Below are positions 10,722-16,241 of a DNA stretch of 64,000 bases, piece after piece (the stretch's first letter is position 1; each line of letters starts with the position of its first letter). The position numbers and the translations under genes are program-made. This stretch comes from Rhizobium tropici CIAT 899 (GTDB lineage Bacteria; Pseudomonadota; Alphaproteobacteria; Rhizobiales; Rhizobiaceae). The notes under the pieces are model-generated. The model was given only the letters and a program-made list of their open reading frames with translations. It ran no database searches and was not told where the DNA came from. The DNA is taken from positions 1,539,001-1,603,000 of the forward strand of contig NC_020059.1 in the NCBI RefSeq assembly GCF_000330885.1. The letters are read 5' to 3'.

Positions 10722-11738
10722 TTAGTCGGCGCCCTGCCGGTTCTTGCGGTCGAGCTCCGTCACCAACGCCAGGATGGTCGTCGAGACCGGCGTCGGTATA
10801 TTCACGAGCTTTCCGAGCGAGACGACGACGCCCACGAGAGGCGTGATTTCTAGCGCCTTGACGGCAAGTAGGTCCTGCAGCATCGAGGTGCGGACGGGTC
10901 CGATCTGACGGGAACGCTCAAGACGTTCTTCGACGGACATGGCGATGTGCGATCCCAAAGCCTCGGCAACGGCTTTTACCTCGCTCATTACTTGGCCGAC
11001 CATGGCCGCAAGTGCTGGATCGTCCATGATATCGGACATCAAACCGCGGGTGAGCGCGCTGATCGGATTGAAGGCGGCGTTGCCCATGAGCTTGCTCCAG
11101 ATATCGTCGCGAATGCGCGAGGAAATCGAAACATTGACGCCGGCCCGCTGCAGCAGTGCTGCGATGGCTTCGATATCGCCCGTCCTCTCGCCGGAAGGTT
11201 CGCCAAGGATGAAATGGCCGGTGTTGGCAAGTTTGACCTCGCCGGGTGCGACGACTTCCGCTCCCTGATAGGCAACGCAGCCGATGACGCGTTCCGGTCC
11301 GATCAGACGCCGGAGATCGCCGTTCGGGTCGAGCTCTTCTATCTGGTGTTCGGCGTAACCGCTCCGGCTATCCCGGTGAAAATACCACCATGGAACGCCG
11401 TTGAGGATCATGACGACGCGGGTGCCGGAATGCAGCAGTTTCGCAATACCCGGAGCCGCTGCGGTGAGCTGATGACCTTTGAGGCCGGTGATAACGAGAT
11501 CTTGCGGCTGCAATTCGCCCGCATCGGAGGTTGCTGTCATCTGCGCGACGAGAGGACTGTCCGCTTCCGCTTCCCACAGGCTTATGCCGCCGGCGCGAAT
11601 GGCCTCCAGATGGGCTCCGCGCGCCACGACGGAAATCTTGGTCTGACTCTCATGAGAGGAGGCGAGCCTGGCCGCGATCGCACCACCGAGCGCGCCGGCG
11701 CCGTAGACGCAGATGTTCTTGAAAGGAGAGGACGTCAT
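10722..11738 (-). CDS. 2-dehydropantoate 2-reductase family protein (PanE/ApbA)
   Basis: The 338-residue oxidoreductase begins MTSSPFKNICVYGAGALGGAIAARLA, a Rossmann NADPH-binding motif. It continues with the ketopantoate reductase pattern, including DDIWSKLMGNAAFNPISALT with the catalytic-type lysine, and ITPLVG near the C terminus. Start at 11738 is chosen because GGAG lies nine bases upstream; an in-frame ATG at 11765 has no such site. Rhizobia have several PanE-like paralogues, so it may serve pantothenate synthesis or another 2-oxo acid reduction. It is divergent from the four-gene envelope operon at 12052. Confidence 0.85.
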   Translation of the reverse strand: MTSSPFKNICVYGAGALGGAIAARLASSHESQTKISVVARGAHLEAIRAGGISLWEAEADSPLVAQMTATSDAGELQPQDLVITGLKGHQLTAAAPGIAKLLHSGTRVVMILNGVPWWYFHRDSRSGYAEHQIEELDPNGDLRRLIGPERVIGCVAYQGAEVVAPGEVKLANTGHFILGEPSGERTGDIEAIAALLQRAGVNVSISSRIRDDIWSKLMGNAAFNPISALTRGLMSDIMDDPALAAMVGQVMSEVKAVAEALGSHIAMSVEERLERSRQIGPVRTSMLQDLLAVKALEITPLVGVVVSLGKLVNIPTPVSTTILALVTELDRKNRQGAD

Positions 11739-12051
11739 GACTTGATACTCCGAACGAAGTCGCATGCCCCTGCCAAGATATGGCGGGGCTACGATTTGGC
11801 GAGTGGTTTATCAGATTGCTGGCAATCGGAACTGAAATCGCCTAGCCCTTGGACACACTACAGGCCTCGCGTAATTTCACCATGCTTGTCACACTTGAAT
11901 CGGAGGCTTTTTCGTTCGGCGTAGGCTTGGGCTAGTCTTTACCACAATCACATCCTAACTTCGGCTAGATCGCTCTGGACCGTGGACAACCGGTGCGATA
12001 TCGATTTCTCAATTGTCCTTTCTAAGTTGATGAATTCGCCGGGGAAGATCG
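11739..12051. other. Divergent intergenic region
   Basis: About 310 bases between the divergent PanE-like gene and the four-gene envelope operon. It should hold both promoters. I see no conserved RNA, repeat or clear operator, only AT-richer stretches. GGGGAAGA just before 12052 may be the ribosome site for the TTG start. Confidence 0.5.
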
Positions 12052-13500
12052 TTGCGTTTCGAAGCCCTCAACCGTCTCTGGGATAGCGTTCGAGAGACCA
12101 GCCATGATTTCCGTGCCTCGACGGACGTTTTTCCCGTCGTCGATATCGAAAAGCTGGGTGCGACCCTCGATCTGAAAGAAAAGGGAGCCGCAGCTGGGCG
12201 TCAGAACCGGCCGCCGCCGGATGCGCAATCGCATGACGAGACGGAGCAGCGCATCGTCGCCTGGGTCGAGGCGGAGAAGAAAAGCTCCTATCAAACCCTC
12301 GAAGACCAGCTCCAGACCTTCGACGGCCGCTTGCGCAACCTCGATTTCGAGGGGCAGTTCGGGCTGATCCGTCAGGCGAATGCGTCAAGCGTCTCGGATT
12401 TCAAGGCGGAAGTGGCAAGCGGCGTCGACGAGCTTCACGGCCTGCGCCGCAAGCTGAAGACGGCCGAGGACGAGATGGTGGGCTTCAAGGCCAGGCACAA
12501 GCTGCAGCGGGCCGCCAAGGTTTCCAGCAGGGCAGCCTGGGGCTTCAAGGTCTCGCTGATCGTCTTCCTCGTGCTCATCGAAATGGTGATGAACGGCAGC
12601 TTTCTGGCCAAGGGAAGCGAGCAGGGCCTCGTCGGTGGTGTAACCGAGGCGGCCGCCTTCGCCTTCCTGAACATCGGCACGGCGTTGATGTTCTCTTTCT
12701 TCTGCGTTCGCTTTCTGGTGCATCGCTCCTTTGCGCTGAAGCTGCTCGGTCTCCTCGGGCTTGTCGCCTATGTCGCCGTGGCTTTGGGCATCAATATTGC
12801 TCTGGCGCATTATCGCGAGGTCTCTGCAACGATCTTGAGCGGGGCCGGCGCTGAGGTCATCCAGCGTCTGAAGGCAGCACCGCTCGGGCTGCAAGAACTG
12901 AACTCATGGATGCTCTTTGCCATTGGTCTGATGTTCTCGCTCGTCGCCTTCATCGACGGCTGCTATCTGACCGATCCTTACCCCGGCTTTGCTGGTGTGC
13001 AGAAACGTCTCGATGCGGCGAGGGACAATTATATCGACCGCAAGCTCGATCTCATCGAAGATCTTCGCGAAATCCGCGACGAGCATAACAGCAAGATCGA
13101 GGAAATCATCCGCGACCTCTCGCTGCGCCGGCAGGAAACGGCTGCCATCATCGCCCATCGTGCGAGGACCGCAGGCCTTTTTGCCGAACACCAGAACCAT
13201 CTCGAGCGCGCCGCCAATGTGCTGCTCACCTCCTATCGCGATGCGAACCGTGCTGCGCGAACCGAGGCGGAGCCACCCTATTTCAAAACCGCTTACAAGA
13301 TGGAGCGCCTGACACCTGTCATTCGCACCGAAGAGGAATGGGACGACAAGGTACTCGGCGCACGCATCCAGAGCGCCCAGGCGGAATTGTCGGAGCAGAT
13401 CAAACGGATCGGCGACGAATTCGAGCGCGCCATCGAGAAATACCATCAGCTCGACAATCTTTTCCCGGAGAGCATCCTTGGCTCGACGCAAGCGGCGTAG
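12052..13500 (+). CDS. Unnamed 4-TM coiled-coil membrane protein (first gene of envelope operon)
   Basis: The 482-residue protein starts at a TTG preceded by GGGGAAG; no in-frame ATG is available near the beginning. A hydrophilic, helical N-terminal region (about 60-150) is followed by four predicted TM helices near 164-184, 199-222, 229-251 and 284-305. A long charged helical C terminus (about 315-475) has coiled-coil character (RKLDLIEDLREIRDEHNSKI). I recognise no named family. It is the first of four overlapping genes, the others being VWA-like, MotA-like and MotB-like, so a scaffold or regulator role in one complex is inferred. Confidence 0.85.
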   Translation: MRFEALNRLWDSVRETSHDFRASTDVFPVVDIEKLGATLDLKEKGAAAGRQNRPPPDAQSHDETEQRIVAWVEAEKKSSYQTLEDQLQTFDGRLRNLDFEGQFGLIRQANASSVSDFKAEVASGVDELHGLRRKLKTAEDEMVGFKARHKLQRAAKVSSRAAWGFKVSLIVFLVLIEMVMNGSFLAKGSEQGLVGGVTEAAAFAFLNIGTALMFSFFCVRFLVHRSFALKLLGLLGLVAYVAVALGINIALAHYREVSATILSGAGAEVIQRLKAAPLGLQELNSWMLFAIGLMFSLVAFIDGCYLTDPYPGFAGVQKRLDAARDNYIDRKLDLIEDLREIRDEHNSKIEEIIRDLSLRRQETAAIIAHRARTAGLFAEHQNHLERAANVLLTSYRDANRAARTEAEPPYFKTAYKMERLTPVIRTEEEWDDKVLGARIQSAQAELSEQIKRIGDEFERAIEKYHQLDNLFPESILGSTQAA

Positions 13501-14296
13501 CCGGCGCGGCGGATCCGCCGGTCTCATCATCGCAACGGTTTGTCTCGCCGTCCTGTCCCTCGGGATCGTCGGCGCCTATGGTTGGCTGCGCTACAAGGCA
13601 AGCGGCAATGTCGCGGTCGACCAGGCGTCTCTCTGCCCGATTGATGGCCCGAAAGCGGAAACGGCCATCCTCCTCGATGTCACCGATCCGATATCAGACA
13701 CGACGGCGCTCGATCTGCGCAACCAGTTCCAGAAGATCGTTGCGGATGTGCCAATCGGCGGCGCGATCGATATCTATGCGCTCACCGAGAAGGAAGGGGA
13801 ACTGATCCAGACCTTCCATGGTTGCAATCCGGGAAGCGGCGCAAATGTCGACGAGTGGACCAGCAATCCGCGTCTGGCGCAGGCGCGGTGGGAGAAGGGC
13901 TTCCAGAAGCCGCTTGCCGATATCGCCGGCAAGCTGACCGCGGGTGAGTCCGGCAGGCTGTCGCCGGTCATGGCAGCCATCCAGAAGATCAATCTGGAGG
14001 TCTTCGCCAATGCGCCGGCCGGCATCCCGAAGCGCCTCTACATCGCCTCCGACATGATCGAGCACACCGCCGCCTTCTCTAATTACAAGGATGGCGTCTC
14101 CTATCAGAGATACCAGAACAGCCCTGCGAACGACCGCTTTCGCACGTCGCTGAGCGGTGTCACAGTCAAGATTCTCGCCTTTCAAAGGCCCAACATGAAG
14201 TTCAGCATGGAGGATCTTGCGAATTTCTGGGCGCAGTGGATCAAGAACAACAAGGGTGATTTTGGCGGCTTCGTGCGGCTGGAGGGGATACGCTGA
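13478..14296 (+). CDS. Membrane-anchored VWA-like periplasmic protein
   Basis: The 272-residue protein starts at a TTG inside the previous gene (23-base overlap) with GGAGAG upstream. A very basic N terminus (MARRKRRSRR) precedes one TM helix (about 14-37), giving an N-in, C-out topology. The exported part resembles a von Willebrand factor A-like fold: a first strand ETAILLDVTDPIS (about 61-73), whose Asp67-Thr69 resembles a degenerate MIDAS, and a later KRLYIASDMIEHT strand. Two cysteines (SLCPID, FHGCNPG) could pair. I do not know a named family. Its stop overlaps the next start as TGATG. Confidence 0.8.
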   Translation: MARRKRRSRRGGSAGLIIATVCLAVLSLGIVGAYGWLRYKASGNVAVDQASLCPIDGPKAETAILLDVTDPISDTTALDLRNQFQKIVADVPIGGAIDIYALTEKEGELIQTFHGCNPGSGANVDEWTSNPRLAQARWEKGFQKPLADIAGKLTAGESGRLSPVMAAIQKINLEVFANAPAGIPKRLYIASDMIEHTAAFSNYKDGVSYQRYQNSPANDRFRTSLSGVTVKILAFQRPNMKFSMEDLANFWAQWIKNNKGDFGGFVRLEGIR

Positions 14297-15234
14297 TGGC
14301 CAATACCGATGCCAGATATCTCATCCGGGATTACGGGCCGATGGTGCTGTTCGCCTCCATCACCGTCGGCGGCATGATCTTCATCTGGTCGGCGAAGCTC
14401 ATGGGCTGGTCGCTGCCCATCGTGACCGGCGTGCCGCTCGTGCTGATGGGGGTCTACTTTATCGTATCGCTCGCCGTTGCCGGGTTCCGGCTGCACAATG
14501 AGCAGGCGGGCGACAACCTCTATTACATGGGTTTTCTCTTCACCCTCTCGAGCCTGGGCGTATCGCTCTATCTCTTTGCTGGCGAAACATCGATCGAGAC
14601 CATCGTCCGCAACTTCGGCATTGCCATCACCTCGACCATTGCCGGCGTGACGCTGCGTATCCTCTTCAACCAGATGCGGCGCGACCCGATCGACATCGAG
14701 CGCAGCGTGCGCCATGAGCTTGCCGAGATGACGCGGCGCGTGCGCACCGAACTCGATTCCTCCTCGCGTGAATTCTCGCATTACCGGCGCGTCAGCAACC
14801 AGATGCTGTCGGAAGGATTCGAGGAGATCGCGCGGCAGGCCGAACGCAATGGTCAGGAAATCAACAAGATTCTCGAAATGCTGGCGAAGCAGGCCGTGAC
14901 GCCGATCAATGACGCGGCGGCGCAGCTGACGACGACGACATCGCAGTTGTCCGACATCATCGGCACGTTCGGCGCCGCCGTCGAAAATGTCGGCAGGAAG
15001 CTGGAGGAAATCCGTTCCCCCGAGGATGTCGTGCGTGCCGAGCTGGCGCCGGCAATCACCGCGATCAAGGAGATGTCGGAGGCGCAATTGCAGCCGCTGC
15101 GCAACATCGAAGTGGCGCTCGGCCGCATGGCGGAGGCGATGGGGCACGCGTCGCCGAGATCATCCGCCGCCGATCGGGATGCGATGCCGACAAATGAAAT
15201 CGTGCCGCGAAAACGCTGGTGGCATCTATGGTAG
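14296..15234 (+). CDS. MotA/TolQ/ZorA-like membrane protein with long coiled coil
   Basis: The 312-residue protein has four TM helices (about 15-34, 41-64, 75-95, 103-124). The last helix, NFGIAITSTIAGVTLRILF, resembles the alanine, threonine and glycine-rich pore helix of MotA, TolQ and ExbB channel proteins. After TM4 a cytoplasmic helical tail of about 180 residues follows, with a tail-like coiled coil (MTRRVRTELDSSSREF, QLTTTTSQLSDIIGTF). ZorA of Zorya anti-phage systems has a comparable long cytoplasmic tail. Homology is inferred from layout and motif, not from a search. It overlaps both neighbours and precedes a MotB-like gene, the usual A-B order. Confidence 0.78.
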   Translation: MANTDARYLIRDYGPMVLFASITVGGMIFIWSAKLMGWSLPIVTGVPLVLMGVYFIVSLAVAGFRLHNEQAGDNLYYMGFLFTLSSLGVSLYLFAGETSIETIVRNFGIAITSTIAGVTLRILFNQMRRDPIDIERSVRHELAEMTRRVRTELDSSSREFSHYRRVSNQMLSEGFEEIARQAERNGQEINKILEMLAKQAVTPINDAAAQLTTTTSQLSDIIGTFGAAVENVGRKLEEIRSPEDVVRAELAPAITAIKEMSEAQLQPLRNIEVALGRMAEAMGHASPRSSAADRDAMPTNEIVPRKRWWHLW

Positions 15235-16241
15235 TAGGAGGCTCGGACAACAAGCCGAAACTGGAGCACAAGGGCTATAATCGTGGCCTCATCCTTGGCC
15301 TGACGATGGCCGAATCCATGCTGCTTTTGGTCTTCTGCCTGCTGCTCGTGGCAGCCGCCTTGATTTCGGCGGAGAGAAGCAAGCGCTACGAGGTCGAGCG
15401 GAAGCTTGAGAAAGTCGAGCAACAGGTCGCAGTGCTGGAGAAGAAGCGGGCGGAGCAGGCGGCCGAGATCGTGCTTCTTCAGTCCAAGGTCGTCTCCGGC
15501 AATCTCACAGCGGCGGACAAGGCGATGGTAGACAAGCAATGGCGGGAGCTGGTGCTGGCGAAAGAAGCGCTAGATAGCGTGACGGACCAGGGCGCAACCC
15601 CGGCCGATCTGCAATCACTGTCCAAGGTCGCGGCCGTTCTGAGGGAACATGACATCTCGCTCGCGACAGCCGCCGATGCGGTCAATAAGCTTCTGGCCAG
15701 CAATGGCGGCGGGAACGGCATGCACGACTGGCCGCCCATCATCAATCTCGACGATGCCAAGAAAAACTATTTCCAATCGGGAAGCGCCGAACTGACAGGC
15801 ACTTTCGCCCAGCTTCTCAGCACGACGATCACAGACGAAATCGCCAGCAATCTGAGCCTCTATGGCGCCAATATCGTCGAGGTGATCGGCCACACGGACG
15901 AGCAGCCGGTGGCGCGCGAAAAATCCAATCTCGACGATACGATCATCAGCGCGATGGACGGCAAGCTGCCGGTATCAGCGCTGCTGCCCGCCGACAATGC
16001 CGGACTTGGCCTTGCCCGTGCCATTGCCGTCGCCAATGTGCTCAAGGCCAATCCGAAACTGAAGGATGCCACGATCCTGCCGATGTCCGCCGCGCAGCTC
16101 ATCCTGCCCGGCGATACCGTCACCTCGGGTCAGCGCGGCGCCGTCGAGGCACGACGCCGCATCGAAATCCGTGTGCGGGGTAGGACGGCCCCCGTTGTCA
16201 TCATCAATGCCGGTGCCGCGCCCTCAACGAACACGCAATAG
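15219..16241 (+). CDS. MotB/ZorB-like protein with OmpA-type peptidoglycan-binding domain
   Basis: The 340-residue protein has one N-terminal TM helix, GLTMAESMLLLVFCLLLVAA (about 28-47), with a buried acid Glu32 where MotB-type proteins carry their ion-conducting Asp. A coiled coil follows (about 52-120). The C-terminal OmpA-like domain (about 185-320) contains NYFQSGSAELTG, VEVIGHTDEQPVAREKSNLDD, GLGLARAIAVANVL and ARRRIEIRVR. An alternative ATG lies at 15228. It overlaps the MotA-like gene by 16 bases. No flagellar or chemotaxis genes are nearby, so a non-flagellar stator-like motor is inferred. Confidence 0.85.
   Translation: MASMVVGGSDNKPKLEHKGYNRGLILGLTMAESMLLLVFCLLLVAAALISAERSKRYEVERKLEKVEQQVAVLEKKRAEQAAEIVLLQSKVVSGNLTAADKAMVDKQWRELVLAKEALDSVTDQGATPADLQSLSKVAAVLREHDISLATAADAVNKLLASNGGGNGMHDWPPIINLDDAKKNYFQSGSAELTGTFAQLLSTTITDEIASNLSLYGANIVEVIGHTDEQPVAREKSNLDDTIISAMDGKLPVSALLPADNAGLGLARAIAVANVLKANPKLKDATILPMSAAQLILPGDTVTSGQRGAVEARRRIEIRVRGRTAPVVIINAGAAPSTNTQ

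Follow-up and report, generated by a model that had tools for sequence, protein, structure and literature searches.

A ZorAB-type motor operon with a separable A-VWA gene pair in Rhizobium tropici CIAT 899, linked to probably periplasmic nucleases in its relatives

The 64 kb window analysed here (positions 1539001-1603000 of the chromosome in the 6.69 Mb, four-contig genome of Rhizobium tropici CIAT 899) contains an operon of four + strand genes, designated A to D, whose ends overlap by 23, 1 and 16 bases in turn. Each of the four frames is protein-conserved in other genera, and A-D is a genuine, conserved gene unit. Genes C and D are predicted to encode a ZorAB-type motor, genes A and B form a module which also occurs without that motor, and in many relatives a nuclease is encoded beside the operon or fused to D. 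We favour the reading that the system is a ZorAB-like, ion-driven envelope sensor which in its complete form would work a periplasmic nuclease against incoming DNA, with the window copy having no linked nuclease, and give this a probability of about 0.55. A sequence-only reading had described four co-directional overlapping genes resembling a non-flagellar stator system, an arrangement confirmed by gene calls and hydropathy.

The predicted motor pair C-D and its partners A and B

Gene C (14296..15234, ATG start, 312 amino acids) has four hydrophobic segments within residues 15-124, forming a compact transmembrane part with almost no loop between the second and third segments, followed by a long helical tail; T83 and T114 are invariant in 39 rows. 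The PADLOC matches of gene C (PDC-S06, ZorA) fall within this coiled-coil tail, as do its PDB sequence matches among those listed (apolipoproteins, the ZorA tail and others), and since the tail attracts such coiled-coil matches, homology was assessed from the transmembrane region only. In HHalign gene C matched the ZorA profile with P 4.9e-5, which indicates homology and not orthology, and the best-fitting stator structure was a type II ZorA (8vvi_C). HHalign gave no direct profile match to MotA or TolQ/ExbB (TolQ/ExbB P 0.65) and C was not recovered by PF01618; a flagellar role was rejected because of the failed MotA and PF01618 matches. Gene C is thus predicted to be a ZorA-related motor subunit.

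Gene D (15219..16241, 340 amino acids) starts with GTG, has an alternative in-frame ATG at 15228, and contains a single hydrophobic segment (residues 33-51) and the motif GLTMAE, the transmembrane glutamate of which (E32 in the GTG form) is invariant in 39/39 rows. The match to Pfam OmpA (E 6.2e-6, 26.9 bits) is slightly below the cut-off of 27.2, while the D family profile matches PomB at 2.8e-8 and also TssL and MotB, with a weak match to ZorB (8vvi_A, E 0.049). These features suggest a ZorB-type partner with a single acid-bearing transmembrane helix and an OmpA-like, predicted peptidoglycan-binding domain; the window copy has no nuclease domain. With its ZorA-type profile and fold, transmembrane glutamate and OmpA domain, the stator-like pair proposed earlier withstood a check for homology to stator families.

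Gene A (12052..13500, TTG start, 482 amino acids) has coiled-coil N- and C-terminal parts flanking hydrophobic segments within residues 167-306, which are consistent with four transmembrane helices and agree with its earlier description as a four-helix coiled-coil protein. No Pfam family scored above its cut-off, and the top match in a PDB profile search was a designed bundle with an E of only 0.024. DUF4407 was considered and rejected (16.9 bits in Pfam vs a cut-off of 31.3; HHalign P 0.63 against three members), and A is assigned to none of the families tested. Gene B (13478..14296, TTG start, 272 amino acids) contains one hydrophobic segment (residues 14-32), and its AlphaFold2 model (mean pLDDT, the predicted local distance difference test score, of 86.8) gave 103 Foldseek matches at E <= 0.001, with mostly VWA/integrin I domains among the best 50 of the 103; the best match was BatB (3ibs, E 1.4e-6), with TM-scores of just 0.39/0.49. 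Cysteines C53 and C116 as well as D67, D70 and D192 are invariant, whereas in the transmembrane part this is true of the start methionine alone. The model supports the earlier proposal that B is a membrane-anchored protein with a predicted VWA fold.

Conservation of the unit and nuclease linkage in relatives

Searches with gene A identified relatives in 20/297 genomes of the same order and 10/398 genomes of the phylum, representing 26 distinct genomes, of which G213, G300 and G560 were left out of the longer locus comparison. An additional search of 295 genomes gave five matches (two strong, three short and weak), and overall gene A has at least 271 relatives. In the 20 loci compared, B adjoins A in all 20 (about 1.1 kb apart in L040; L-numbers are labels of loci from relatives used in the comparison), and C and D are present in 12, the remaining eight being A-B only (L038, L039, L040, L041, L042, L043, L053 and L054). 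The A proteins of these eight are longer (499-552 amino acids), and L042 adjoins a type IV secretion coupling protein gene. All four proteins were found in 79 of 80 named loci, these being the best 80 of 103 relatives in a closer set biased to Hyphomicrobiales, and in the remaining one the contig stops after A. Clustering of gene A at 90% identity gave 50 clusters, of which 42 contain A-B-C-D, seven contain A-B and a single one is cut off; the 42 non-redundant A-B-C-D loci, all alphaproteobacterial, bear out the expectation that the four genes co-occur in other genomes. Gene A of the A-B class is homologous to that of the A-B-C-D class (HHalign E 7.7e-43), and in a quick tree, where the A-B rows are on long branches and the root was not inferred, gain or loss of the motor pair amounts to one change. 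A-B is therefore a module which exists without the motor too and is here coupled to C-D. Split or shortened genes were seen in L114 (B, 11415-12238) and L127 (B and D, 11349-14798), which may be decaying or mis-sequenced.

The first leads to a nuclease, confirmed with Pfam, were an SNase gene directly upstream of A in L009 and L047, and D fused to SNase in L037 or to a GmrSD_C HNH domain in L036. A systematic scan with one SNase profile (built from L009, L047 and L037) and one HNH profile (L036 only) found SNase matches of at least 40 bits in 24/80 named loci. When counted per cluster, using the member with the longest flanks (some clusters being short-flanked), a nuclease is encoded within 3 kb or fused to D in 19/42 clusters (the representatives comprise 17 SNase genes separate from D, one fusion with SNase and one with HNH); the 3-10 kb zone contains no nuclease in any of the 42, despite more far-flank sequence (368 vs 231 kb). 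With even placement the probability of 19/19 being near is ~1e-8, for clusters that are only partly independent, and counting any member instead adds one nuclease-bearing cluster (L073/L075). Weaker SNase-like neighbours outside the 19 were found in L060 (Pfam E 0.0027), L139 (1.4e-4) and L078 (0.001), with only L139 above the Pfam cut-off. As an independent check, a genome-wide Pfam-model scan of 20 genomes picked for bearing the system identified 53 SNases, and in seven of these genomes an SNase was within 3 kb or fused, vs about 0.1 expected. The linked SNase genes are upstream or downstream of the operon and on either strand, and a 'thermonuclease family protein' is publicly annotated beside the operon in 3/6 plasmid regions inspected. 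No such nuclease was found in the eight A-B loci, and inspection by eye of 20 loci gave no other shared effector.

The linked nucleases are probably active outside the cytoplasm. The motifs R-x7-E and D-x-x-x-R, which we take to have catalytic meaning, are present in 28/28 and 26/28 distinct SNases, respectively, and a hydrophobic stretch precedes the nuclease domain in 34/35 SNase rows (15-residue mean of at least 1.45), which makes export or membrane anchoring likely. Fused nuclease domains are present in 51 of 97 D homologues (27 GmrSD_C and 24 SNase), a biased frequency as both query proteins were nuclease-bearing and just 7,990 candidates were scored, while in 94/97 a motif of the G-x-T-x-(A)-E type is located close to the N-terminus. 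As the C-terminus of D should be periplasmic by homology with MotB/ZorB, the fused nucleases should be periplasmic too. In the tree the nuclease label requires nine changes vs a shuffled mean of 15.3 (L060, L139 and L078 scored as nuclease-bearing, five short-flank loci left out of the label count), thus the nuclease comes and goes, yet is clustered. The absence of an attached nuclease or helicase, as proposed by the sequence-only reading, therefore applies to the window, where the 64 kb contain no SNase-profile match and no Zor family is among the PADLOC matches listed for ten flanking genes, but not to many relatives. Its suggestion that the extra partners replace nuclease effectors is not supported in that form, since A-B exist without the motor in 8/20 loci and many relatives have a separate or D-fused nuclease along with all four genes.

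Some further neighbours were observed in individual loci. A 746-amino-acid gene beside the D-HNH operon of L036 (10789-13026) has weak HATPase and TOP6A/Spo11 Toprim matches and was not recognised by PADLOC, and about 3 kb past the operon in L047 (17308-19999) the end of a PP2C-like phosphatase gene (by eye) is overlapped by a gene resembling protein kinases, whose match to Pfam Pkinase is below the cut-off. In Sinorhizobium CCBAU 05631 the annotation places a gene with an excalibur calcium-binding domain next to the SNase (L198, 275-502), and the SNases of Mesorhizobium have, as judged by eye, an excalibur-like stretch at their end (L121, 15840-16673). In two plasmid copies an SH3-domain gene directly follows D (L009, 12458-13210; L199, 13634-14392), and may belong to that subtype.

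Proposed envelope defence and rival explanations

The distribution of the system is patchy and partly mobile, with plasmid and prophage-associated copies. Gene C is present in 13/25 same-genus genomes (window genome counted) and 2/16 other genomes of the order, and gene A was found in 24 plasmid records, of which 11 are typed conjugative. L037 adjoins an integrase, and phage genes occur in the vicinity of L011 (an endolysin) and L098 (a terminase small subunit). IMG/VR contained one matching contig, which agrees with the Faunimonas contig L098 in length and in where the match falls. Among neighbours picked by eye and without control, L060 is in a defence island with a SIR2-STAND protein, a T5orf172 protein and a PtuA-like ATPase. 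L009 is close to a complete GmrSD gene.

Phage defence is the reading we favour for this combination of features. By homology, five C would surround two D in the motor core, D would bind peptidoglycan and its transmembrane glutamate would couple ion flow to movement, which A and the periplasmic VWA protein B may relay. The complex would monitor the envelope, and its motor would open upon a disturbance, for instance phage injection; the resulting movement would reach a periplasmic nuclease, which would then cut the incoming DNA. In many relatives this would be a probably exported SNase encoded next to the operon, or the SNase or HNH domain at the C-terminus of D, while the window copy may use a nuclease encoded elsewhere or act without one. 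A model described for Zorya has ZorB sensing disturbed peptidoglycan, ion flow moving the motor and the nuclease being concentrated at the site (PMC11890865, partial text), and the same logic with the nuclease moved to the periplasmic side would explain the D fusions most simply. The stricter version is tentative and somewhat short of even odds: envelope immunity in which a peptidoglycan-anchored, ion-driven rotary motor works a periplasmic nuclease, in some cases one built into the motor partner, and phage DNA is thereby cleaved as it is injected, with A-VWA as a separate sensor module joined to a ZorAB-type motor.

Several results weigh against defence by a motor-linked nuclease. The HHalign probability for C and ZorA is just 40%, Foldseek gave no match for C at E <= 0.001, and designed helical bundles equal its stator match in VIA Z. 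No strong nuclease match is present within 3 kb in the examined member of 23/42 clusters, one of which is the 26-member cluster containing the window copy (0/26 members with a nuclease match nearby, all four genes open), and in the other 3/6 plasmid regions (Paracoccus/Sinorhizobium) no nuclease is annotated beside the operon. The defence-island evidence comes down to one clear, eye-picked locus without control, and 50,697 phage records contained no match. Finally, the window operon has housekeeping-type neighbours, being preceded on the - strand by DapA-like and PanE-like genes, with a RarA-like gene further upstream, and followed by an ABC-F type gene (names by eye); several congeners (L013-L016) have the same neighbours, which speaks against a mobile role for the window copy.

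The 26 nuclease-free members with four open frames could also mean that the window clade has changed its role, with A-B-C-D acting only as a sensor or as a superinfection block, for instance by ion leakage via the motor. In the tree this clade falls, strongly supported, within a group that includes the nuclease-bearing plasmid copy L075, which makes loss of a linked nuclease plausible; however, the window genome has three SNases elsewhere, one of which is 37% identical to the L009 SNase across residues 30-161, and these could serve in trans, leaving a changed role a serious but rather doubtful alternative. We consider it unlikely that the system is an envelope-maintenance machine, in which the motor drives B as a Tol-Pal-like force transducer on the peptidoglycan or outer membrane, and the linked nucleases are mere hitch-hikers on shared islands or serve only to remove DNA. 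Membrane-anchored vWA proteins beside TolQ/TolR-like motors, a type to which B belongs, have been put forward as putative force transducers (PMC12204202, partial text), and the nuclease-free window copy amid housekeeping-type genes would fit such a role. Presence in barely half of the same-genus genomes ill suits a core function, though, and hitch-hiking does not agree with domains fused to D or with the lack of nucleases at 3-10 kb. Exported SNases (thermonucleases) degrade DNA outside the cytoplasm, and with the nucleases linked to the motor this could suggest handling of periplasmic DNA for uptake, nutrition, extracellular-DNA processing or biofilm control, which is quite improbable given that inspection of the flanks by eye showed neither an uptake channel nor a pilus gene (no profile search was aimed at them) and that the patchy, plasmid and prophage-associated spread fits defence better.

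Comparison with known systems

A search of mainly PubMed Central-accessible literature found no paper on the A-VWA module, on its occurrence apart from the motor or on the linkage of a ZorAB-type motor to probably periplasmic nucleases, which we consider the new points of this study, and in the same literature none joined Zorya, periplasm and SNase, or ZorB and a periplasmic nuclease. Zorya motors have been proposed to recruit cytoplasmic nucleases (PMC11890865, partial text), and if our reading is true, the ZorAB engine would be a general adaptor for DNA destruction at the envelope, on either side of the membrane. Many genes whose products are at present annotated as hypothetical, chemotaxis or OmpA family proteins would then gain a role, and the D fusions, with motor acid, peptidoglycan domain and nuclease in one polypeptide, make our reading directly testable.

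With MotAB/PomAB and TolQR/ExbBD the system shares a four-helix subunit and a single-helix acid-bearing partner, and the OmpA-like domain of D matches PomB, but C differs in its lack of a direct profile match to these families, including PF01618, and in its near-absent loop. The force-transducer systems have a motor gene set including a membrane-anchored vWA protein, as here; compared with what the partial text of PMC12204202 describes, our system has a separate, OmpA-type acid-bearing partner D, a B transmembrane part without invariant residues beyond the start methionine, the four-helix protein A, no TPR protein, and linked nucleases. The nuclease domains in neighbours and D fusions of relatives are those of the GmrSD and thermonuclease (SNase) families, although the fusions attach them to a motor partner with transmembrane glutamate and OmpA-like domain; the window D has neither nuclease domain. 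The closest likeness is to the anti-phage type II Zorya system (ZorA-ZorB-ZorE), with its ZorA-like subunit of compact transmembrane part and long cytoplasmic tail, its single-helix partner with transmembrane acid and OmpA-like peptidoglycan domain, and its nuclease, to which the nuclease linkage in relatives corresponds. Differences are the glutamate of D, where Zorya has a conserved aspartate (PMC11890865, partial text), the extra genes A and B, and the linked nucleases being SNase or GmrSD_C and probably periplasmic. PADLOC identified no ZorC/ZorD, ZorE or ZorF/ZorG effectors on A-D, nor in ten flanking genes among the matches listed (for one of these genes the best 25 of 29), and with these effector genes absent the system is by definition not Zorya, as the sequence-only reading had already judged, although it probably works like one.
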